Virus record (IMG/VR): IMGVR_UViG_3300049916_000740
Span: 1-21,376 of that record
Strand: one strand, 5' to 3'
DNA: 21,376 nt
Origin: a virus
This document shows, one piece after another, positions 1,030 through 19,233 of the stretch (its first letter is position 1; each line of letters starts with the position of its first letter). The position numbers were made by a program, and so were the translations under genes. A model generated the notes under the pieces. That model was given only the letters and a program-made list of their open reading frames with translations. It did no database searches and was not told the DNA's origin.

Positions 1030-3180
1030 CTATCCTGCTATTGCTGTTATAGTGATATGTGGTTCAACTAGCGAGTCCACGGCTCCGGTTCGAGTGTCAA
1101 ATTCGTCAGAAATACTCCCCGGCGCGGTCGTTTGGTTATGATCTTCAAATAATCTAACATCGTAACCCGTGCTATGTGCATTAAAGCTAAATCCTATTGC
1201 TCTCGAAGATGTCCACGACTTCAATATTTGATTATATATTGAAGAATTATTTTCACTACTAATTGTTGAATCAATTGTATATGTTGCAGCTACTGTTATG
1301 GTCGAGCGCGCTGCGGTCGAAGGGTACTGTATCCTTGAAAATGAATAGTATTTAGAGGGAATTAGTGTTGTATTTGATTCAGTACTTATAGAAGGATAAA
1401 AATAAGCAATGTGCTCATTGTCTAGACTTTCACCTCCGAATGTTATTTCTAACCTTACATGCTTTGTTCCAGCAGGAGGTGTATAATTCATTTTACATCC
1501 TTCTAATAATTCAGTGCCATTACTGCCAATAATTACGTTAACATCTGGTAAAGTGTGTGTTCCTGAAACAACAGTAACTGATCTTCCATCGCAAGGCCCT
1601 CCAAACGTTTCAATCACTTCGCCTAGTCTATAATTGGTGTCAACTAGTTTTAATTGATTATTGACAAACTCAAAATCTTCTGAATCAACATCCAGCGTAA
1701 TGCTATTTGCGTTATTCGCACCACCTTTACCATCTGGATCAGTCGATGATCCTAAAAGATTCGTTTGTGAATGGCTGCCATTGATTTGTATACCATTTGT
1801 AGGAGTAACATTCTGAACAACAACACTTGAACTTTCAGTTTTAATGATATAGTTAAGTACGATATAAGGTTGAATGTTATTGTGTGCTAGATTACTACCA
1901 GTAGATTCAGTAGTTACACTTCCTGCGGTATTAGGATCATAACCACCTCCTCCTTTATCTCGATCATAAACATTTCTGGCATTAACATTATTAATAGAGT
2001 GTGTATGCTCTGCTAATTCATCTACTGTAAGTGCGTGTTTGTATTCGCCACCTGAGGCACCTAACACATTAAATCCTCCACTTGGTAGTGTATTAGAATT
2101 TAAACCATTTACATCAGTAGTACCTCCAGTTGCTGTTCTGCCGATTGGAATCCGTCCTCCCATATTAGGAACATTAAAGGTAGTAGTTACATCAGCTTGA
2201 TCGGTCGTGCCTTCAAGAAATGCAGTACCGCCATATGTGTTTGAAATCACCGCGTGTAAAGCACGATAGGTATATGTATTCAGCGTTTGACCGTTGCAAA
2301 GTTTCCATTTATCAGGAGCCCCTGCTTCAGACCATTGTATCACTGAACCAATAGGATTCGGATCTTCAATTAAAAACGGATCAACATTCAGTTGTACCGC
2401 CTCTTCAAAATCCCAATCAAGAACATCGTCATCTAAAACCTTTAATATTTGACCTGGGATTGGAGGATCGCTTGGCCACGTGTATGTTGTATTAGCGTAT
2501 TTGGTTCTGCCTGTAGGAACGTCAAGTAGACTTGCCTTTAGTGTTTTGCTAGCGGTGTGTAAATCAATCGATTGTGTAAACTTAAACTCACTTGACTCTA
2601 CATAAATTTTACCATTAGCCCCAACCTGAATACCGTTTGTTGAATCATCAGCCGCAGTAAATTTTACTAATCCTTCAAATTGTTTTTCACCGGTAATATT
2701 ATCACTCGATGTAAGAGTCATGATATTGTTTTCACCACCAGTTACATCAATCAACCGAGAAAATCGAGTATCAAGAGAAGATACACTTGCTTTATTTAGT
2801 ATCGCGTCACGCGCAACTTCATTTGTTTTTCTACGCCATGAATTAAAAGTATCACCTGCAAGAACACCAAAATTTATAGGTTCAATGTCTGCATCAGAAA
2901 TTGGACTTGTATATGAGATATAAGTTTCTCCATTGAACTGGCCAGTAGGTGCGCTACCTTGGTCACTACCAGAAGGATGTACCATACCTATAGTTGGCAT
3001 ATAAAAAGTAACACCAATAACTTCTTCAAATGTATGTGCGTGAGAAGTTCCACTACCACCAGCTTGCGCAAGATCAGCTTCGTTCGCTTCTGTTTGTGTC
3101 AAGTATAAAGGCGAATAAAATCCCTTTATTCCAAACGTTGATCCCGAGTTACTTGTGCCATATATGTAATAAACTGCCAT
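1030..3180 (-). CDS. Tail-collar-domain fibre / putative receptor-binding protein (716 aa)
   Basis: Modules in order: residues 1-90, an N-terminal module also found on the gp7-like protein (VYYIYGTSN, SHAHTFEE, VTFYMP); 104-120, NFGVLAGDTFNSWRRKTN, a motif repeated at the start of the next fibre; ~125-265, a beta-rich shaft; 275-345, a phage tail-collar domain (NPIGSVIQW, KWKLCNG, FNVPNMGGRIPIG); 388-447, its HxH part (ELAEHTHS) and closing NIQPYIVLNYIIK; 455-500, a linker; ~510-716, a separate C-terminal beta domain starting YRLGEVIETFGGPCDGRS with TYTIDST-like strands. Collar domains occur in T4 gp12 short fibres and other receptor-binding fibres, where HxH histidines can bind metal in the trimer. 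The C-terminal domain is the likely variable receptor-binding tip. The product is probably trimeric. A gp12-like role is plausible but the architecture is not T4-like. Confidence 0.85.
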   Translation of the reverse strand: MAVYYIYGTSNSGSTFGIKGFYSPLYLTQTEANEADLAQAGGSGTSHAHTFEEVIGVTFYMPTIGMVHPSGSDQGSAPTGQFNGETYISYTSPISDADIEPINFGVLAGDTFNSWRRKTNEVARDAILNKASVSSLDTRFSRLIDVTGGENNIMTLTSSDNITGEKQFEGLVKFTAADDSTNGIQVGANGKIYVESSEFKFTQSIDLHTASKTLKASLLDVPTGRTKYANTTYTWPSDPPIPGQILKVLDDDVLDWDFEEAVQLNVDPFLIEDPNPIGSVIQWSEAGAPDKWKLCNGQTLNTYTYRALHAVISNTYGGTAFLEGTTDQADVTTTFNVPNMGGRIPIGRTATGGTTDVNGLNSNTLPSGGFNVLGASGGEYKHALTVDELAEHTHSINNVNARNVYDRDKGGGGYDPNTAGSVTTESTGSNLAHNNIQPYIVLNYIIKTESSSVVVQNVTPTNGIQINGSHSQTNLLGSSTDPDGKGGANNANSITLDVDSEDFEFVNNQLKLVDTNYRLGEVIETFGGPCDGRSVTVVSGTHTLPDVNVIIGSNGTELLEGCKMNYTPPAGTKHVRLEITFGGESLDNEHIAYFYPSISTESNTTLIPSKYYSFSRIQYPSTAARSTITVAATYTIDSTISSENNSSIYNQILKSWTSSRAIGFSFNAHSTGYDVRLFEDHNQTTAPGSISDEFDTRTGAVDSLVEPHITITAIAG

Positions 3181-8681: not shown

Positions 8682-10325
8682 TTAAAACTGGATCACTAGT
8701 TTAATTTCTTCTTCTTGTGAAGCAGCTCTTTGAATTGGTTTTCTATTTTCTAAAAATAAAACTTCACCCGTACGAGGAGTAAGTTCTGGTGTAACATTTG
8801 AATCAGCGGTGTATGTCATTTCTGGTATATTCGTTGTAAATCCATCGCTCGCTTTTGCAATTGTAATTTTCGTAGTCGCACCATCACCAGTAGTAAAATC
8901 GTTATGATTTACATTTGCGCTATCGTTTTGGTGAAAGTAAATATGTTTATTAGTTACATCAACATAATCTACAAAACCCTTTGCTTTAACATAATCACTT
9001 TGACCATCATCTATATCAGCAATGGCATCATAATCGCCATCAGCAGTAGTTTCTGTAATAATATCACCAGAAGTAATCGCGTTTAAATCAGCTTCTGCAG
9101 TATTAGATGCAACGGTGATTCGGCGCAAACCACTCAACACTTCTTGTAAACCATATTCGCCATCGCCTGTAGGTGCTGGACTATCGTCCGAAGCGTTTCG
9201 AGTAGGTTGTCTTATAAGAGAAATTTGGCGATAAGATATTCCAGTAGGTATTTCTCCTTTAACATCACCATTAAAATCAACTGCCAATCCTGCATAAAAT
9301 GCAGGTAGTTCTGCGACAGGGTTATGACCAAATCCATCAATTGGAGAAATTAGAGGATGAATTATCGGTGCAGTAGTTTTATTAACACCACTCTTCATCC
9401 TGATCGATGCTCTTACTACACCTCTTTCGTCTATCATTTCACTAGTATCAGATAACCCTGCACATACAAATCCGCTAATCGCTCCATCTGTAATAGTAGC
9501 CTGGCAATCGAGAATTTTTGGATCTTTATGAGTTGAATCACTTATTAGTAATTGGAAATCTCCATCGCCACCTCCGGTTGAAGTATCCATTCCAGCTCCA
9601 GGGTTTTCTATTTCAAACCCGTATATAATTCCTCCACTAAATTGAGAAGGTGTACCCGCGCCAGTTTTTACAGTTTTAACTTCTATAAATTGATCTGTAT
9701 TAAATTCACTTGCAACTACTAAATCAGCCACGTACACCCAGTTATAATTATCATTGGTTGCACCACTACTTAGTGATGGGGTTCTATTGTCAGAATCACC
9801 AGCAGGAGCAACAGCTGACGGGCCCGCTAAATACGCGCCATTTGTACTATAAGAATTGTTCGAATCATTGTCTAAGCACATATATATTTTATCGTTATAC
9901 ACAGCATAGCAAGGATACTCGGTGTTTCCGGCGCTATTAGTAGAAACATTGAACATGTCTGGATCGTTTTTATTCCACCTCTTATATCTACGATTAGCTA
10001 CCCAATTAATCCTTGGGATAACGTGTAAAGCGTTTGTGGTACTAACTGCTACCGCACCTATTAGATTATCAAGAACTTCTTGTGACTCACTAACGCTACC
10101 ATTCGGCAATGGTGTTGGAAAGTTTTGGTCGGATTCACTAAAAGTAGTTTCTCCTGATGTTATTGAAGCCCAAGGATCAGATTTGCCAATCCCGACGAAA
10201 TACTCAAATCCTCCTGGATCTTGTTCAGGACTATCGTCCGTGCTTCCGGCATTTTTATCAATGATATCTTTGATTAAAAACGTTGCCGAATTACGTCTAA
10301 AATCATCTGTAATTATTGCTGCCAT
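8682..10325 (-). CDS. 8: Baseplate wedge protein gp8
   Basis: The T4 gp8 signature is clear at both ends. Residues 41-51 (EYFVGIGKSDPW) correspond to T4's FITFGRSEPW. Residues 82-113 (EVLDNLIGAVAV, VIPRINW, RRYKRW) correspond to its MMGTVKV, VIPRRDW and TRY region. YRQISLI near residue 366 corresponds to FRQISII, and the last 29 residues (TGEVLFLENRKPIQ, EEEIKLVIQF) correspond to SGEMIYMENRPPII, TEEINILFTF. T4 gp8 is a dimeric wedge protein that binds gp7, gp10 and gp6. This protein is 547 residues against 334 in T4. Much of the extra length lies between YRQISLI and the C-terminal strand (about 395-515), an Asp/Thr/Ala-rich beta-like insertion. It has its own upstream TATAAATA box and is followed after 12 bases by the DUF4815 gene. 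Confidence 0.95.
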   Translation of the reverse strand: MAAIITDDFRRNSATFLIKDIIDKNAGSTDDSPEQDPGGFEYFVGIGKSDPWASITSGETTFSESDQNFPTPLPNGSVSESQEVLDNLIGAVAVSTTNALHVIPRINWVANRRYKRWNKNDPDMFNVSTNSAGNTEYPCYAVYNDKIYMCLDNDSNNSYSTNGAYLAGPSAVAPAGDSDNRTPSLSSGATNDNYNWVYVADLVVASEFNTDQFIEVKTVKTGAGTPSQFSGGIIYGFEIENPGAGMDTSTGGGDGDFQLLISDSTHKDPKILDCQATITDGAISGFVCAGLSDTSEMIDERGVVRASIRMKSGVNKTTAPIIHPLISPIDGFGHNPVAELPAFYAGLAVDFNGDVKGEIPTGISYRQISLIRQPTRNASDDSPAPTGDGEYGLQEVLSGLRRITVASNTAEADLNAITSGDIITETTADGDYDAIADIDDGQSDYVKAKGFVDYVDVTNKHIYFHQNDSANVNHNDFTTGDGATTKITIAKASDGFTTNIPEMTYTADSNVTPELTPRTGEVLFLENRKPIQRAASQEEEIKLVIQF

Positions 10326-10372: not shown

Positions 10373-10377
10373 TTATA
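10370..10377 (-). promoter_or_regulatory. T4-type late promoter core TATAAATA upstream of gp8
   Basis: An exact TATAAATA on the minus strand overlaps the last codons and stop of the 277-residue gene. It lies about 45 bases before the gp8 ATG, in the longest intergenic gap of the window, and would give a leader of roughly 35-40 bases. This is the best-placed late promoter candidate here. Confidence 0.65.
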
Positions 10378-11206
10378 TAAGTTTCTCCAATACTTTTGAA
10401 GAACCTCTAATAAAAGTTTTATCCATATAATAGTTAGTAGTTTCTGTTATAACACCTTCAGTAAACTTAGGTGTATCTTTAGGACCATCGCTAGGGTAAG
10501 TGTGTGTCTTACTCACGCTGCCTGAACCAACTCTGGTTATTTCAATGTTACTTATTGTAACATCGAACAGGCTGTCTGGAGTAAACGAGAAAAAGATTCG
10601 AGGGTTGGATCCTCCTGAGCTAACATCTTCTGTATCGTCGAATACTTTTACTTCAATACTATTCGAGCCAACACTTGCTCCATAGACATTAGCCGATGCA
10701 TTACCGGCACCATCACGTGTCAAGACACGTAATGCAATAGTCGTACCATTAGAAGCAAATAAAGTCCCACTGTGCAACGTAAGGTCAAACTTAACTAAAT
10801 TTTTTCCAGTTCTAACAGTGTCTGTATCTACAATTTCAACTTCTTTCCATGAATTTATACCATCATTACGTAAATCACTATTAACTCGAAAGCTAGTATT
10901 GCTTATAGCTGTGTAATCATAATAAGCATTTTCACTACCCCCTGGAGTAATGACTGATGGATATGTGAAGGTGCCGAATTGCCCAAAGGTGTCATTATTG
11001 CCATCTCCCCAAAATAGTGTTTCAGTCCCAAGATTAATCTGATTGTAAACAATATCAATTCCGCTAATAGTTGCAGCAGTACTCGTTCCACCTGCGGCAT
11101 GTGTCCAAAATGTTCCAGCAGATTCTGACAAATCATGATTTGCTATTTGTACAGGAGGATCTTTATAAACGAACGCTCCTAATTGTTGTCCTAAAAATCT
11201 TCTCAT
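10373..11206 (-). CDS. Unrecognised probable virion protein between gp7 and gp8
   Basis: I do not recognise this 277-residue protein. It begins MRRFLGQQLGAFVYKDPP and is then rich in Thr, Ser, Gly, Asn and Asp, with strand-like alternation and no obvious helices. This suggests a beta-sandwich structural protein: residues ~95-165 (VRTGKNLVKFDLTLHSG, GTTIALRVLTRDG) and ~170-230 (NSIEVKVFDD, RIFFSFTPDSLFDVTISNIEITRV). The end is polar, then basic/hydrophobic (TFIRGSSKVLEKLI). No signal peptide or membrane helix is seen. Start choice is firm: the ATG overlaps the gp7 stop by one base and has GGAGGA five bases upstream, so translation is probably coupled to gp7 and stoichiometry may be similar. 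T4 has no gene between 7 and 8. Its context suggests a decoration or fibre-attachment component of the wedge, which is inference. Confidence 0.8.
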   Translation of the reverse strand: MRRFLGQQLGAFVYKDPPVQIANHDLSESAGTFWTHAAGGTSTAATISGIDIVYNQINLGTETLFWGDGNNDTFGQFGTFTYPSVITPGGSENAYYDYTAISNTSFRVNSDLRNDGINSWKEVEIVDTDTVRTGKNLVKFDLTLHSGTLFASNGTTIALRVLTRDGAGNASANVYGASVGSNSIEVKVFDDTEDVSSGGSNPRIFFSFTPDSLFDVTISNIEITRVGSGSVSKTHTYPSDGPKDTPKFTEGVITETTNYYMDKTFIRGSSKVLEKLI

Positions 11207-14200
11207 CAGTATCCTCCTTGGCCTCCGGTTTGACCTCCTTGACCAGCATTATTGTTTGTTGCAGGTGGTGTATACTCACTGACACTTGATGAATAATTTC
11301 CTGCGCTTAAATAGGTAGTGTCATTAGAAATATAACCTTCTTCTGTTACAGTCACCATATCGCTAATAGCGGTATTGTAATAAGCGCCTATTCTCGAGTT
11401 ATCGAAAAATTTCAAGTTTTCGTTGTAATTATTTCTAGCCCTATGATCATAATCGTTTGTAGTAATAGTGTGCACCGAAGTTGGTTGAATGTAGATTGCA
11501 TTAGTAGAAACGTTATTAAACTTTTTAACTTTTCTATTAGCAGGTCTATCATCAATATTATAAAAAACGTTAGGTTCTATAGTAGGGTGCAATAACTCTT
11601 CTATCGAAGGCTCAGTTCCATCAACTGCTTCTATCCGCGTTCCGAATATTTCTATTTGATCGTTAGGCTCGGACTTTATTGAAAACAACCCTGCACTTAT
11701 TCCAATTCCTTCTGCTGTAGTTTGATACATAAATTCGTTTGTTCCGCTAATAATCTTTTCTCCCACTGTATTATATATACCACCAAGCTCAGCACCTAGT
11801 GTAGAGCCAGATGAAGCTGCACCTCTTGTCCCATCATCAGGACGAATATATCCTACTAATAAAAACCATTTATTATTCTCTGGCAAATCACCGGTCCAAA
11901 AACTAGCGGGATCATACTCTCCGGATATTTCTGACGTTACAGTAAAAGGAGAATTTAATCGCACAAGTCCAGATGTATTACCTCCGTTATTAGCATACAC
12001 CTCAAATATTTTTTTTCCACTATTACTTTCTTGTTTCATCCAAACAGAGCAACGGTATGTTTTGGTGTTGTTATCGCCGGTTGTAATACCAACCAAAGGT
12101 GAACTAAATCCAGCATTAGGAGTAACAGGTAGATTTAAATTTGAAAGGCCTGTTTCGATAGCAGCGCGGTTTGATGTTTGGTCAGAGGTATAGTAGATAA
12201 GCTCAGACATATATAATTCACCGGCGCTATCAGCTTGGGTTTCAAGCATTCGTCGCGCCGACCTGAGCGACGCTGCGTTAGGCTCATCGTCAAGTGTAAT
12301 AGTTCGGCTACCTATTTGAACACCATCTACGTGACTAGTAGATGTGCCATTGGATTGGCCATCCGTACCATTCATTATATGTGAAACCGTGACTCTATCT
12401 TTACTAGTCATATATGTTCCACCATGTGAATCAACGGACAAAGAAATATTGGTGGTGCTCGGTGAAATAAACCAGTGCGGCCTTCTATTCGCTCCGTGAC
12501 CGCCGTGAGCAGTTTGGTCTGTTGTACTATATAACCTAAACACAGCTGGATAGGTACCTGCCGCAGGGGTTACATTATTTTCTACAACAGCAAACAACGA
12601 TTGTTGGCCATCAGCCGAAAGTGAAAATTCTGGAAGATCTAAAAATGTGGATGTGTTATTACCAGATCTAATCGATGGAGAGCCACTACGTGTGATTAGC
12701 GCACCGTTTGAAACAACCTTCGGCTGGTATCGTCCGTCGCCGCGAGCGTGGTTATTGTTGCCTGATTGGTCATACCATTTAGATACGTAGCCTTCACCAG
12801 ATATTGAACTTCCTGTCTCTGTGTAATCTCCAGGCAAGCTACCTTCTACTATTTGAGCACCCCACAAATAAAACGAACTGCCTACACCTTGATACTCTTC
12901 ATCGCGATTGAACACATCTTGTATCTGGTAAAAAACTGCAGAAACGCCTGTTTGAAGAATACACGTTCCAGTCATTGAGACTCTGTACCACTCATTTCCT
13001 ACACTCGTAACTGTAGCTGAATTGTTTGAGGTCTCCATTGTATCTAAATTAACTGAAACATTTGTGCCAATGGCATGACCACCATTTATGAATAAGAACC
13101 TATTGTCTGATTTCTTTTTAACGTAACAACTAAATGTGTACGTTTTCCCCAATGTTAATCGCATAGTACCTTCTTCGCGAAGAAGGTCGATCGAATACTG
13201 GAACAGCCGGTGGCGACTAAAGCTATCATCTTCTTTTATTTCATACGCAGTGTTCGTACCGTCGGGGGCTGTGGTAGCGGCTACGTTGCTCCATTGGCTC
13301 TCATCTAAACCCAATCTGCCCCAAGATGAATCGTCAAAATTTTGACTATTCCTTACCAAATTAGCACCGCCTACAAAATCTACAAGAGTACCATCAGCAA
13401 CATCGGCTGCTGTAAATGCATTAACACTACCATCACTAGAACGTCTTACCTCAACTACCTCGCCGGTGTAGCTAGAGCTAAGGTTGCGTAGACTAAAGGC
13501 AAGCGCCGCAGAATTATCTACGTCTAAAGGAAGAGTACGGCCTGGATTATCAACATGGGCAGAAGTGCCAATCCATCCAATAGTGCTACTGCCAAATGGC
13601 GTTACAATGTATTCTCTAAAATTCTCTAAAATGTCGCCATTCCTCTTCCACTTTTTCCCATCAGCAGCGCCATACTTTTCATCATCTCCATTTCCAGGAG
13701 ACCACGGTAAAAACGCGTTTAAAAGATTTGTTTCTTTATGCTGTGAAGGTAATACGATTGATTTTTCCGAATTGATTTCATCCACAGTTAAATCTCCATA
13801 GTCTGCTACACGTGTATGTTTATCAAACCACTTGATCCATCTTTTATATTCGTGGTCCACTTTCTGTTCTCGACCTTCTGCATCAGCTCCAAATATAAAA
13901 CGAAGTATTAGGAAAATAGATCTTTCGTATATTCCTCCTCCACTTCTTGGGTTGTTTCCATTTACAAGAGCTTGTATTAATATAAAGAGCCCTCTGATAT
14001 CTACATCTAACCAACCGGGCTGATAGAAAGGCATATGCATTGAGCCCGAGCCTTCATCATTAAGTCTCCTTTGGTCCTCACTAAGATTTTTCCAAGGTGG
14101 AATTAATTTTTCAAGCCAGTCTGTAAGTTTAAGATCATCTGTTTCAATATCATTGTCTACTTTATATGAAGTATCGCCTAGCCAAGAATTTGATCTGCTT

Positions 14201-17200
14201 ATTTGCATAAGAAGAGCACTAAACATTTTCATACCAGCCGGATGAACTAGTCTCAAATATTCGCTTTCCCACTCAGTAAGCTGGATGTCTCCACGTATTT
14301 GATAAGAGTAGTCCGACCAAAAGTTACTATCTTGAACTTTATTAATATCTGATATAAACCCTTTTCTATCAGCGTATTTTCCAGATGATGAAAGTGTTTC
14401 GTTAAAGGTGTGTGAAATTTTATTTCCACTAATAAAATCTAATGAAGGACTTCTATCTCCAAATGTGACTTTTCCTCTTTTATTCGCCTGTTGGTATGTT
14501 ACAGAAAGGTCTGATAGAACGTTATTCGCAGAACTTTCATATGACCAAAACGAATCTTTTAATGGACCAGTTATATTTGAAAATGTGTATGTCTGCGCGC
14601 TATCACGCAAGTAGTATAGCGAAGATAAACTTCTATTTTCATCTACATTAACTCGCATCGCCCATTGATAGGGGTTTAATTTTTTGACTAAATAATCGTG
14701 TATCTCTCCAATTTTTTCATTAGTAACTTCCTTTTGGTAATACGCAAAATATTTTATATTGCCTTTAAAATAGTGAATAGACCTTCTTACACCGAGTCGC
14801 AAACTGCCATTTGAATCATTCACATCAAGCATCTCTTTAGTAGTAACAGCTGTGATTTGCTTACCATAAGTTACCCAATTCTGAGATGATATTTGAGGAG
14901 ATTGCAATGCAACATCTTCACTACGAGAAGCCGCGCTGCTACCTGCTTCATTTAATTGAAAAGGAGAATACGTATGGCGATACAAGCTACCGTTATTAGT
15001 AGACCCATATCCTGCCAACACTTTCATTCTCTTTTCGTAGTCAATAAGCGTTTGATAAAAACTAGTTCTTTGAGAACCAGAATTATTTAAAGAATTGCTG
15101 GCGTGACTTCTTACAACTTGAGCAGCTCCATCGTAAATATCATTTGGTAAAGTAGGATTTGCATCAGCATACTCGTAAAGCTGATGTGCTGCAAGCTTAT
15201 GCATTATCCCGCTTGATCGATTATTAATTACCTCAAACACCGCGTGTGAAGTTGCATCAAACCAAATTTGTAAAGGAAAAAGTTTACCTTCATAGCCTGA
15301 AGCTTGGCCTATTAATATCCACATACCATACGCTGGAGGAGTAGCCGCCAAATCAACATCAAATCCTTCTAACACTTCATTCCAGCTTTGTGTAATGTCA
15401 AAGTTATTTCCTGTATAAAAAGCGCGTATCTCAGCCGCAGTCATATATTCAATTACGTATTTGTCAAAGTCATTGCCGCTACCATCGGTCGTTATAGAAT
15501 TAGCCCAACTATTTGTGCTATTACCTGTAATTACTGCGTCTGCGAAATCAGCTTCGTAATAATCACTTCCATTCGATGATGTTCCTGCTTTTGTAAATCC
15601 ATTAATGTCAATTTGCGTCGTAAGTAAACCACCATCCTCAGAATCATAGTAAACTCCTGCCCTCTTAATATCAAAAGAAGTAGGTGTACCATAGTCGCTA
15701 TCATCCCAAACTCTTTCCCAAGTTTCTCCATTTACCGAAACATCGATGTAGCCATCACCTGCCGCAGCACCAGCAACGTTACCTGCATCAGCAATAGCGT
15801 CAATATCTCTTCGACCTCTTACAGCAACTGTCGCGTAATCTCCGTTAGTTGGAACATCTGTCGTAGATGATGCAGAAACTGGATTATAACCATTACCAGT
15901 TCCCCATCTCCAAGTTTCATAGTTTAGTTTACCTTGTTGTAGATCTAATTTAAGACCAGGATAGTTAGTTTCATCGACAAATAAATGCGCAGGCCCATTG
16001 AGACCTGCATCAGCCTTAATGTGTGCTATCATCGTATGTGATAGCGTGTCATCTGCTTCTGTTAAAATTTCTGGATTCGTTTTATATATTTGTCCAAGAT
16101 CAACGTGGTTTCTATCGTAGGTATTACCTCCAGGACTATCCGTAAATATAAACCCATCTTCTTCACTATAGATTGCTCCGTTTTTTAATTGAGCAACTGT
16201 TTGCGAAAACCTTTCAGAGTGCGCATCGTAAACACGAAAACTATTTTCATCAGGATCATATCTATCTCTTTCTGAAGTATCAATCTCGAGAAAAAGGTAT
16301 TGTGTGTCTGGGTGAATAAGATTAGTATTATCAATTTTTTCAAGCCGTTGTATTTGGCCCGTGCCGATCTCACCATCGCTGCTGTTATAAAATTTAAGAG
16401 GTGTACCTATATCATCTACGCCTAAAAGGCTATTACTTGCAGATCCGGCAAGCGTATTTCCGTAATTAAAAATATCATCGTCTTGAATCCAATCTCCGTC
16501 GGACGCTTTAAGCAAAAAATCCTTTGGGTATAACACCTCTACGATTTCATCAAAAAACAATTTGAAGAAAACTAAAACAGATTCTTCGCTTCCTCGAACA
16601 GAGTAGTAATTAACAATTCTCTTATACAAAGAAACAGTATCAATCACACGAGAATCGGGCACCGAAACCGCAACCTCTTGTTGTATTTTCTTTAGATAAT
16701 CAGAAGACGTTTCATCGATATCGTGTTCAGTCAATATTCTTTTACTTATATTTAAAACCTGATCGTTCGTATTAAGATATGTGTAATAGTCTTCTAAAAG
16801 AGCAGTAAGTGTTTCAGCCGATTCACGCAATTGAAGTGGAATCAAATCATCGACCGCAGAAGATTCTTTATTCGATGTTCTTTCGTTATAAGGGCTGGTT
16901 TGCTTAGGTGAGTATTGCGCAACACTTGAAACCACGAGCGAAGCTTCAGGACGATTTGTGTACGAAATAATATTTGTGGTTGAGTCAAAGTTATACGTAG
17001 CATACTCTGAATACATTTCGTTGTTATACGCTGATGCTGTAGGTGGACCACTTGTCCCGTGATTCATAGATCCTATTGGCATATAAAAAACCACACCATC
17101 TAAACCTTCAAATGTGTGTTGATGGTATTGCCCAACGATATCATCTGAGCTCGTGTATAGAGGATAGTAATAGCCAAATACTCCGGCAGAATCTCCGTAG

Positions 17201-17232
17201 TTGCTTGTTCCTTTTAAATAATAAACTGACAT
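11206..17232 (-). CDS. 7: Giant gp7-like baseplate wedge protein with fibre-type N-terminal module and adhesin-like insertions
   Basis: At 2008 residues it is about twice T4 gp7 (1032 aa). Assignment rests on position between gp6 and gp8 and on two stretches I associate with marine gp7-like proteins: residues ~125-345 (YYSVRGSEESVLVFFKLFFDE, YPKDFLLKASDG) and ~855-1215 (FWSDYSYQIRG, EWESEYLRLVHPAGMKMF). Residues 1-80 are a module (VYYLKGTSN, HQHTFEG, VVFYMP) shared with the collar fibre at 1030-3180. Residues ~385-850 look like a LamG/concanavalin-type insertion ending in IHYFKGNIKYFAYYQKEV. Residues ~1243-1700 match an arabinofuranosidase/LamG-like fold (SLRNLSSSYTGEVVEVRRSSD, later KWYDQSGNNNHA) interrupted at ~1290-1477 by a carbohydrate-binding-like jelly roll. 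Residues ~1703-1875 appear to be a second jelly roll (YRCSVWMKQ, KWFLLVGYIRP). The tail is Gly-rich and ends QGGY. No catalytic site is identified. The stop overlaps the next start (TGATG). Confidence 0.8.
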   Translation of the reverse strand: MSVYYLKGTSNYGDSAGVFGYYYPLYTSSDDIVGQYHQHTFEGLDGVVFYMPIGSMNHGTSGPPTASAYNNEMYSEYATYNFDSTTNIISYTNRPEASLVVSSVAQYSPKQTSPYNERTSNKESSAVDDLIPLQLRESAETLTALLEDYYTYLNTNDQVLNISKRILTEHDIDETSSDYLKKIQQEVAVSVPDSRVIDTVSLYKRIVNYYSVRGSEESVLVFFKLFFDEIVEVLYPKDFLLKASDGDWIQDDDIFNYGNTLAGSASNSLLGVDDIGTPLKFYNSSDGEIGTGQIQRLEKIDNTNLIHPDTQYLFLEIDTSERDRYDPDENSFRVYDAHSERFSQTVAQLKNGAIYSEEDGFIFTDSPGGNTYDRNHVDLGQIYKTNPEILTEADDTLSHTMIAHIKADAGLNGPAHLFVDETNYPGLKLDLQQGKLNYETWRWGTGNGYNPVSASSTTDVPTNGDYATVAVRGRRDIDAIADAGNVAGAAAGDGYIDVSVNGETWERVWDDSDYGTPTSFDIKRAGVYYDSEDGGLLTTQIDINGFTKAGTSSNGSDYYEADFADAVITGNSTNSWANSITTDGSGNDFDKYVIEYMTAAEIRAFYTGNNFDITQSWNEVLEGFDVDLAATPPAYGMWILIGQASGYEGKLFPLQIWFDATSHAVFEVINNRSSGIMHKLAAHQLYEYADANPTLPNDIYDGAAQVVRSHASNSLNNSGSQRTSFYQTLIDYEKRMKVLAGYGSTNNGSLYRHTYSPFQLNEAGSSAASRSEDVALQSPQISSQNWVTYGKQITAVTTKEMLDVNDSNGSLRLGVRRSIHYFKGNIKYFAYYQKEVTNEKIGEIHDYLVKKLNPYQWAMRVNVDENRSLSSLYYLRDSAQTYTFSNITGPLKDSFWSYESSANNVLSDLSVTYQQANKRGKVTFGDRSPSLDFISGNKISHTFNETLSSSGKYADRKGFISDINKVQDSNFWSDYSYQIRGDIQLTEWESEYLRLVHPAGMKMFSALLMQISRSNSWLGDTSYKVDNDIETDDLKLTDWLEKLIPPWKNLSEDQRRLNDEGSGSMHMPFYQPGWLDVDIRGLFILIQALVNGNNPRSGGGIYERSIFLILRFIFGADAEGREQKVDHEYKRWIKWFDKHTRVADYGDLTVDEINSEKSIVLPSQHKETNLLNAFLPWSPGNGDDEKYGAADGKKWKRNGDILENFREYIVTPFGSSTIGWIGTSAHVDNPGRTLPLDVDNSAALAFSLRNLSSSYTGEVVEVRRSSDGSVNAFTAADVADGTLVDFVGGANLVRNSQNFDDSSWGRLGLDESQWSNVAATTAPDGTNTAYEIKEDDSFSRHRLFQYSIDLLREEGTMRLTLGKTYTFSCYVKKKSDNRFLFINGGHAIGTNVSVNLDTMETSNNSATVTSVGNEWYRVSMTGTCILQTGVSAVFYQIQDVFNRDEEYQGVGSSFYLWGAQIVEGSLPGDYTETGSSISGEGYVSKWYDQSGNNNHARGDGRYQPKVVSNGALITRSGSPSIRSGNNTSTFLDLPEFSLSADGQQSLFAVVENNVTPAAGTYPAVFRLYSTTDQTAHGGHGANRRPHWFISPSTTNISLSVDSHGGTYMTSKDRVTVSHIMNGTDGQSNGTSTSHVDGVQIGSRTITLDDEPNAASLRSARRMLETQADSAGELYMSELIYYTSDQTSNRAAIETGLSNLNLPVTPNAGFSSPLVGITTGDNNTKTYRCSVWMKQESNSGKKIFEVYANNGGNTSGLVRLNSPFTVTSEISGEYDPASFWTGDLPENNKWFLLVGYIRPDDGTRGAASSGSTLGAELGGIYNTVGEKIISGTNEFMYQTTAEGIGISAGLFSIKSEPNDQIEIFGTRIEAVDGTEPSIEELLHPTIEPNVFYNIDDRPANRKVKKFNNVSTNAIYIQPTSVHTITTNDYDHRARNNYNENLKFFDNSRIGAYYNTAISDMVTVTEEGYISNDTTYLSAGNYSSSVSEYTPPATNNNAGQGGQTGGQGGY
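11212..11217 (-). promoter_or_regulatory. Strong Shine-Dalgarno GGAGGA within the gp7 tail
   Basis: The minus strand reads GGAGGA-TACTG-ATG, a textbook ribosome binding site with five-base spacing for the 277-residue gene. The same bases encode the final Gly-Gly of the gp7-like protein. It is the only strong Shine-Dalgarno I see at any start in the window. Confidence 0.85.
13611..13630. repeat. Perfect 10-bp tandem duplication inside the gp7-like gene
   Basis: The plus strand reads ATTCTCTAAA twice in direct succession, encoding part of DILENFREY near residue 1203. The unit length is not a multiple of three, so gain or loss of a copy would shift the frame. It may be chance. Confidence 0.5.
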
Positions 17233-17244
17233 AATTTTTTAGTA

Positions 17245-19233
17245 TCAATAACCGCCATAACCACCTCCAGAAGAAGAACTACCAGAAGATGATGATCCGC
17301 TTGAAGATGATGAACTACTACCTTGATCAACAGTGACACCTGAGGTGTTTGACGTAATTACTCCGTTGTCTGCGCGTGAAGAATATGTATTATAGTTATC
17401 ACCCACTGAACCGGATACTGCCGCAGTATCAATTTCTCCATTTACCGAAGTCTTAGGGACGTCAATGCGCAATAGCGTATTTCGACGAGATACGATATCA
17501 TTAGAATCTGGTGCTACTTCGAAGCGTATAGTTTCAACCGATTGCGTAAGTGGAATTTGAGAATTCCTTAAATTTATTTCTCCCTTTGAAACATCAAGTG
17601 TTCCAACAGAATTTATTACTTTTGTTCTTACACCTTCTACTAAAGTATAAATGTATATGTTTCTTTCAACCTGGCCGACCTCTCCAGCCTCGTCTGCTAA
17701 AAAGTAATCAGCATTATTATATTTCCAAGAGGTAGATTGTATAATTGATTGAGAAGGATTTTCGTCAAAAAGCGCCATATCAAAATCAATCTTATGTGTG
17801 ACGGTAGAACCTCTTGTAAGAACTAGATCTTTATACGCGTAGACCCTTACGGTCGAGTTAAGAATAGCGGTATTACTTGAATCTATTTCTCTTAAGAATT
17901 GTGAGTAGCGAAATACACCATCAAAATTTTGTAGTTGTGATTCGTTAAATCTAGTAATTGTTTCTCGCACACCAGTCTCCATTTGTGATTGTGTAAGAGA
18001 TGTAAAATTACTATTATACTTGAAAAGCACATTAAAGAAAAGGTATGTATAATCTGGATCAACTACCACAGGCTCAATCGCGAGTACTCTTTTACTTTGT
18101 AGCGCAGCTGTGACCGAAGTCTTTTCTTCTCGCGTTAAAGAAAGAGCACCTTCAGGTTTTACGGATATAAACACTCTGCCGAACTGTTGAGGATTATTAT
18201 CTTCACCACCCCAAACTGATATACTATCAATAGCACCGAACGCCTGCTTTACAAGAGTTTTATAATCGTCAGTTGTGACTGCACGATTTTGTGCAATGAA
18301 GGTAAGAGGAGCATTGAATCTAATACTTTCGATATCTTCAACTTCAGATCCACCCGCAGAAGCTGAGTTAACTATAATTGTGGTTGTACCATCGACTGTA
18401 GTGTCAGCACCGCCACTATACGAAAATGCTGAAGCACCGTTTGCTACGTCTCCTCGAGTGCTTAGAAATTCAAGTTCAATTACGGATTGATTTCCTGGTT
18501 GCTTGCCGATAATGTTATTACCAAAGTGAATTTCATACTTACCTGCGTAGTTTTCTTCAAGATAATATATGAGAGATGAACTATTCAGGCCTGAAGTATA
18601 TTGTTTAAAACGATTATATATGCTATATGTACTCGCGTTAGGCGTATCGTAAACCTTTACAAGCAAGGTGCTAATATCTGCGTTACGATCTTGAATCACA
18701 AACTTTTGATTTAACAAAGAATTATCTATGTTGTATTTACGTGACTTCATCGAGCCCTGTGATACTAATAAGTTGTTAAATGTAAATGTACCTATTCCAG
18801 ATTCATTGACCACCACAGCTGCCTGTGAGTCTTGAAGAAGTACGAACGTATATGTGATATCATCTATCGTAGATGTAAAGGTGTCACCACGATTAATCGT
18901 GTATGTACTATTAGTAGAATCATCTTTTCTTCGGAGCACTAAAGTAATATCGGCGGTGGCCGCGGTTTTACTCGTAGGAGTATAGCCTAATAGTTTTGCA
19001 CGAGAAACAACGTTAGATCTTATCTGAGCGGAATCAAGAAAAGATTCATTCATCGCAACGTGAGTATTCATCGAGTTGTAATGTGTATTATACGAAAGAA
19101 CATCGAGTAGATTGTTTAAACCTGAACCATCGAAGTCCCAATCTTGAAAAGGTGAGCCTGAACGTTTAAAGTAATCTTTGAGATTACCTTTTATTTTATC
19201 GAAGTCTAATTCCGTTGTATTAAATTGTGCCAT
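17245..19233 (-). CDS. 6: Baseplate wedge protein gp6 (baseplate J-like)
   Basis: At 662 residues it matches T4 gp6 (660 aa) in length. The N-terminus (residues ~7-90) has the expected ELDFDKIKGNLKDYF, then DWDFDGSGLNNLLDVLSYNTHYN, MNESFLDSAQIRSNVVSRAK and LLGYTP segments. The baseplate J-like core motif NRAVTTDDYKTLV lies near residue 315. gp6 dimers make the continuous inner ring of the baseplate whose iris-like opening triggers contraction. The last ~28 residues are an almost pure Ser/Gly tail ending GGGYGGY, which T4 gp6 does not have as far as I recall. The start follows the gp25 stop by one base, with no Shine-Dalgarno seen. Twelve bases separate it from gp7. Confidence 0.95.
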   Translation of the reverse strand: MAQFNTTELDFDKIKGNLKDYFKRSGSPFQDWDFDGSGLNNLLDVLSYNTHYNSMNTHVAMNESFLDSAQIRSNVVSRAKLLGYTPTSKTAATADITLVLRRKDDSTNSTYTINRGDTFTSTIDDITYTFVLLQDSQAAVVVNESGIGTFTFNNLLVSQGSMKSRKYNIDNSLLNQKFVIQDRNADISTLLVKVYDTPNASTYSIYNRFKQYTSGLNSSSLIYYLEENYAGKYEIHFGNNIIGKQPGNQSVIELEFLSTRGDVANGASAFSYSGGADTTVDGTTTIIVNSASAGGSEVEDIESIRFNAPLTFIAQNRAVTTDDYKTLVKQAFGAIDSISVWGGEDNNPQQFGRVFISVKPEGALSLTREEKTSVTAALQSKRVLAIEPVVVDPDYTYLFFNVLFKYNSNFTSLTQSQMETGVRETITRFNESQLQNFDGVFRYSQFLREIDSSNTAILNSTVRVYAYKDLVLTRGSTVTHKIDFDMALFDENPSQSIIQSTSWKYNNADYFLADEAGEVGQVERNIYIYTLVEGVRTKVINSVGTLDVSKGEINLRNSQIPLTQSVETIRFEVAPDSNDIVSRRNTLLRIDVPKTSVNGEIDTAAVSGSVGDNYNTYSSRADNGVITSNTSGVTVDQGSSSSSSSGSSSSGSSSSGGGYGGY
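17248..17331 (-). repeat. Ser/Gly low-complexity C-terminal tail of gp6
   Basis: About 28 codons encode runs of Ser broken by Gly and end in Gly-Gly-Gly-Tyr-Gly-Gly-Tyr. Ser codons are mixed (TCA, TCT, AGT, AGC), so this is protein-level low complexity rather than a pure DNA microsatellite. The Gly-rich end resembles the GGQTGGQGGY end of the adjacent gp7-like protein. Confidence 0.8.

Follow-up and report, generated by a model that had tools for sequence, protein, structure and literature searches.

Gene content of the locus

The window, which is the whole stretch of DNA analyzed here, is a 21,376-base IMG/VR virus record. Its minus strand carries an ORF with an ATG start and without an internal stop, directly downstream of gp6. 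The features that bear on this ORF are the following.

17245-19233, gp6 (PHROG 219, E 4e-155)
11206-17232, minus strand, gp7 baseplate wedge protein, 2008 aa
17056-17232, minus strand, mobile three-His module, residues 1-59 (HxHTF...FYMP...NH), homologous to the collar fiber N terminus
16483-16845, minus strand, gp7 core block 1, residues 130-250 (PHROG 26741/17744)
14668-16323, minus strand, predicted jelly-roll of LamG/ConA type (LamG1), itself interrupted by an insertion, residues 304-855, at the site occupied by domain V in T4 gp7
14215-14385, minus strand, gp7 core block 2, residues 950-1006
13549-14196, minus strand, clade-specific scaffold, residues 1013-1228, ~45-75% identity in L001, L003, and L004, no known family
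12076-13536, minus strand, predicted second LamG/GH54-like domain (LamG2), residues 1233-1719, absent from close relatives
12799-13377, minus strand, predicted carbohydrate-binding module (CBM) nested in LamG2, residues 1286-1478, from VIA fold and sequence profile
11593-12075, minus strand, clade-wide domain, residues 1720-1880, conserved in all clade members
11209-11592, minus strand, conserved C-terminal scaffold, residues 1881-2008, ~60-80% identity to relatives, with a Gly-rich tail ending GGY
10373-11206, 277-aa ORF separating gp7 from gp8
8682-10325, gp8
2977-3180, minus strand, another copy of the three-His module, N-terminal in a collar-domain fiber protein

In order of transcription, the genes are gp25, gp6, gp7, the 277-aa ORF, gp8, and a gene for a VrlC-like protein of 1757 aa. 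Neighbors were identified with PHROGs and Pfam, and the VrlC-like protein was identified from matches to annotated VrlC genes. An earlier note on this DNA had placed the large protein between gp6 and gp8; its coordinates are right and the ORF adjoins gp6, but the 277-aa ORF intervenes before gp8. A small ORF between gp7 and gp8 is also found, in the same order, in L004, L017, and L018. Across the window, L003, L004, L017, L018, and L025, the ends of this ORF are conserved and its middle varies in length (total, ~132 to 277 aa), so that it looks like another insertion site. The gp6 tail (window positions 17245 to 17300) is rich in Ser, Thr, and Gly and closes with -GGY, -GY, or -SY, a pattern that recurs in many marine relatives; the gp7 tail within the clade (window positions 11209 to 11260) has the same composition and the same endings.

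Identification of gp7 and its core blocks

Residues ~129 to 259 match gp7-type PHROGs (E 2e-26 and 6e-22). When profiles were built with T4 left out, core block 1 matched residues 663 to 758 of T4 gp7 (E 9e-6) and core block 2 matched residues 862 to 890 (E 0.0024, against the whole T4 protein), collinear with core block 1. A combined core profile from marine gp7s was compared with the PDB, and its significant matches were to T4-type gp7 only (E 9e-10 and 8.5e-5). A whole-protein phmmer search of the PDB returned chance matches only, and the weak Pfam matches of the whole protein to MDD_C and GH49 were set aside as spurious. The gp7-like core segments proposed in the earlier note are therefore supported. 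The protein is homologous to the T4 core, and its gene lies near gp25, flanked by gp6 and, beyond the small ORF, by gp8; this evidence argues that the 2008-aa protein is a true gp7.

The resemblance to T4 gp7 (PDB 5HX2/5IV5) consists of the collinear core blocks (profile E 9e-10) and the same gene position. The two proteins differ elsewhere. T4 gp7 has ~640 N-terminal residues, comprising an FN3 domain and others, that are missing from the window gp7. Between the core blocks, T4 has ~100 residues, which belong to Pfam Gp7_5th (domain V, residues 766 to 861), whereas the window has 701, and T4 has neither LamG nor CBM. The two core blocks total ~180 residues, and ~90% of the window protein is without a T4 counterpart.

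Size of gp7 across relatives

Thirty-seven complete gp7s were collected, a nonrandom set made up of the results of similarity searches started from the window, with named cultured phages added. Their lengths span 325 to 3530 residues, a tenfold spread with a median of 1252, and their core-to-core inserts range from none to 1886 residues (median, 791; T4, 103). The giant "virion structural proteins" between gp6 and gp8 of cultured cyanophages (S-PM2, 3048 aa; S-RIM44, 3328 aa; S-RSM4, 3515 aa; S-H9-1, 3530 aa) have the same core 1, core 2, and insertion site as the window gp7, with larger inserts. The suggestion that the window gp7 is exceptional in being doubled thus does not stand against the median length or the cyanophage proteins at the same position. 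"Doubled in size" also misleads, given the tenfold range and the ~640 T4 residues that are absent here. Close relatives do not all have a common length and fold, so the finding that would have told most against the reading of the earlier note was not obtained.

The slot of domain V is filled in various ways. The 2673-aa gp7 of L022 has an FG-GAP repeat in this slot, and S-PM2 and S-RSM4 have a YHYH domain there; in the comparison with the window, YHYH stands where the window has LamG and the nested CBM. At the other extreme, a 325-aa gp7 (L038:7935-8909) has little beyond the two core blocks and is possibly a minimal gp7 that could serve as a family reference. In pelagiphage HTVC008M, gp7 (L012:10846-13893) is annotated "head closure Hc2," a label that is apparently wrong. 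According to a published comparison, pelagi- and cyanomyophages lack gp7 and have VrlC in its place (PMC7029224). The claim of absence is not supported by our profiles, which point to a gp7 in these phages, often of greatly increased size.

An N-terminal module shared with gp6 and fibers

Residues 1 to 84 of gp7 are 43% identical to the N terminus of the collar-domain fiber protein of the window. The fiber-type N-terminal module of the earlier note is consequently real, but it is not specific to fibers, since it also occurs in gp6 and in other gp7s. Its invariant features are HxH, FYMP, and a later His, and it matched no Pfam, PHROG, or PDB family. An HMM survey of the gathered loci found the module in 81 distinct proteins: at the N terminus of gp7 in 12, inside the gp7 slot in 23, in 5 gp6 proteins, in 5 collar fibers, and in 36 unassigned proteins. 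Prokaryote genomes seldom carry it (6 loci). In cultured cyanophage S-H34, a tail protein carries it. Several giant marine-phage tail proteins also hold the ~60-residue module (G-YYYPLY...HxHTF...FYMP...NH), and further sites are L023:1531-1833, L027:2227-2529, L035:7625-7942, L028, L044, and L236. DLP6 gp7 was considered as another carrier and rejected, since the tblastn match from residue 5 runs beyond gp7 and DLP6 gp7 starts at the core. That the module binds metal is a guess from its histidines.

A predicted LamG-type domain in the slot of domain V

The earlier note had suspected a LamG-like insertion at residues ~385 to 850, and the fold search bears this out over ~304 to 855. The AlphaFold model was built from a 12-relative alignment and has a mean pLDDT of 42, with the LamG strands at 50 to 80. 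In VIA-align, lectin-type jelly-rolls ranked at the top (Z ~15 to 16 over ~205 residues; rmsd, ~3.2), and Foldseek added neurexin LNS/LamG domains to the matches. Pfam gave no LamG match for this region in either the window protein or its relatives. High scores were also obtained against clostridial neurotoxin binding domains and trans-sialidase; they reflect the common lectin-type jelly-roll, and a function shared with these proteins is not implied. In L003 and L004, a further ~270 to 290 residues are inserted inside LamG1.

Jelly-rolls of phage tails are often structural. Those of gp7 might likewise fill space, brace neighboring wedges, or dock fibers, with sugar binding lost, a possibility that we consider unlikely. 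LamG1 and the region from 1720 to 1880 are fixed across the whole clade, as expected for a structural part, and a lectin fold suggested by a model does not by itself show function. The pattern of change between L001 and L002 points the other way. These near-identical phages, represented by two contigs, differ at 27 gp7 codons, although no codon is changed in gp6 and 3 nucleotides differ over the 3.5 kb upstream. LamG1 holds 24 of the 27 changes and the N-terminal module the other 3, with none in the cores or scaffold (hypergeometric P ~1.8e-6 for the clustering in LamG1). This shows local diversification or recombination. Eleven of the changes are synonymous, so the clustering alone does not prove positive selection, and the changes could have arisen without selection, through recombination over a local tract or through a mixed assembly.

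A predicted second LamG domain with a nested CBM

An adhesin-like C-terminal region had been proposed at residues ~1243 to 1875. The proposal holds for ~1233 to 1719; residues ~1720 to 1880 match no recognized family. A YTFSVYVK-like motif had raised the suspicion of a CBM in the latter region, and profile comparisons gave no confirmation: no PDB or PHROG link appeared, and comparison with known CBMs gave an hhalign probability of 1.8%.

The LamG2 region was modeled from residues 1226 to 1730 alone, because mixed gp7-relative/LamG alignments misplaced the LamG C terminus. The LamG2-CBM model has a mean pLDDT of 50, and its second half is without a confident fold. Within it, residues 1286 to 1478 have both a CBM4/9-like jelly-roll fold and the sequence of that family. 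The modeled CBM matched the baseplate wedge chains of Pa193 and E217 (VIA Z 15.1 and 14.0) as well as CBM4/22/61 structures. Its sequence profile matched the RcGTA head-spike fiber (E 9e-46) and, at ~1e-23, Pa193 gp46 (9B45), which is baseplate wedge 2, and the triplex wedge protein E217 gp45 (8ENV). The RcGTA head-spike fiber binds capsular polysaccharide (PMC10218006, PMC7296036). Residues 1286 to 1478 would bind a glycan by analogy, such binding being shown only for this RcGTA homolog.

Homologs of the LamG2-CBM unit are near-complete phage proteins of ~500 aa that are nested in the same way, L141 being one example. The CBM half occurs often, in at least 384 confirmed places. Members of the family match ArabFuran-catal (GH54, PF09206), CBM_4_9, and Laminin_G_3 (2.5e-4). 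The match to PF09206 was obtained with 4 of the 14 aligned LamG2 homologs (best E 5e-9), and the halves flanking the CBM locally resemble a GH54 enzyme (6sxs; Z 8.1 over 72 residues). These similarities would suit a domain that has kept the ability to cleave arabinofuranosides or some related glycan of the host. The window copy, however, has no Pfam match, its GH54-like domain is split by the CBM, and the half without a confident model adds to the doubt, so that we regard enzymatic activity as improbable.

The unit is absent from L001, L003, L004, L017, L018, and L049, which have a short loop instead. Its presence or absence among relatives that are 60 to 70% identical, together with its higher G+C content (0.44, versus 0.34 to 0.40 in the remaining gp7 gene), points to horizontal gain. 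An insert found in a single metagenomic contig, with a differing G+C content, could also come from a chimera of two viruses. Such an assembly artifact is very improbable: a single open frame crosses both junctions, clade-type sequence resumes beyond them at 60 to 80% identity, and the same nested unit occurs in many phage proteins. A purely structural purpose for the jelly-rolls also sits poorly with this unit, which is dispensable in relatives and whose CBM family includes a capsule binder.

Comparison with other wedge and fiber proteins

E217 gp45 and Pa193 gp46 are wedge subunits of the (2+1) triplex with a CBM of the same family; their equivalence to gp7 rests on this triplex role, and they were not listed among the PDB matches of the gp7 core profile. 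They are small wedges of ~500 aa, and their CBM is not known to be nested in a LamG. The E217 wedge is also a tail-fiber attachment protein, through a separate loop, which favors the structural alternative. Vp4 Gp119 of the Herelleviridae is a wedge protein with CBMs that are lacking in its near relative Deep-Blue, and it binds cells (PMC11406892); it differs in being a BW3 wedge protein rather than gp7 and in belonging to a phage of Gram-positive hosts. The RcGTA fiber Rcc01080 (6TB9), which has a CBM of the same family and demonstrated capsule binding (PMC10218006), is a free fiber on the head rather than part of the baseplate. Wedge proteins with CBMs are thus already known from E217, Pa193, and Vp4, and, since Gp119 is a cell-binding wedge, the idea of a gp7 adhesin has a precedent in kind. 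Its novelty lies in the form: gp7 as a carrier that keeps a single conserved slot, a LamG-CBM unit gained in one lineage, and a module shared with gp6 and fibers.

Proposed role of the gp7 inserts

The fold of LamG1 and the fold and profile matches of the CBM support lectin/CBM-type domains built into the wedge protein, as first suggested in the earlier note. We propose that gp7 is probably a carrier of such domains that adds to the grip on host glycans; judged by analogy, sugar binding and host recognition are the likeliest role for the inserts. The sequence shows a small gp7 core, with a LamG/ConA-type lectin fold replacing T4 domain V between the blocks, LamG2 with its nested CBM inserted into a loop near the C terminus in the window lineage only, and the three-His module capping the N terminus. 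gp7 would join gp6 in each of the six wedges, and the inserted domains would project from the baseplate rim. T4 gp7 is a monomer present in 6 copies and complexed with two gp6 chains (PMC3004832), and the expected number of about six copies per baseplate is supported if this stoichiometry holds. The domains on the rim might hold capsule, lipopolysaccharide (LPS), or other host glycans weakly and polyvalently. This grip would add to the separate fibers and perhaps keep the baseplate near the surface until contraction.

A more general proposal is offered tentatively, as one that may well prove too broad. The gp7 of marine T4-like phages may be a general display platform in which the domain V slot and the loops after core 2 are filled by surface domains that can be exchanged (LamG, LamG with nested CBM, FG-GAP, and YHYH). 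The three-His module would move between gp6, gp7, and fibers, possibly as a metal-bound docking or receptor-contact unit, and the wedge itself would sense the host and act on contraction, with no fiber in between.

Enlargement of gp7 is usual in marine relatives of T4, and the gp7 of the window illustrates with unusual clarity a general design, that of a baseplate that may itself take part in gripping the host. With gp7 present and often enlarged, sense can be made of what was the largest unexplained structural protein encoded here in abundant ocean phages. Host-range models built on tail fibers only would miss part of the recognition machinery should the inserts bind glycans.
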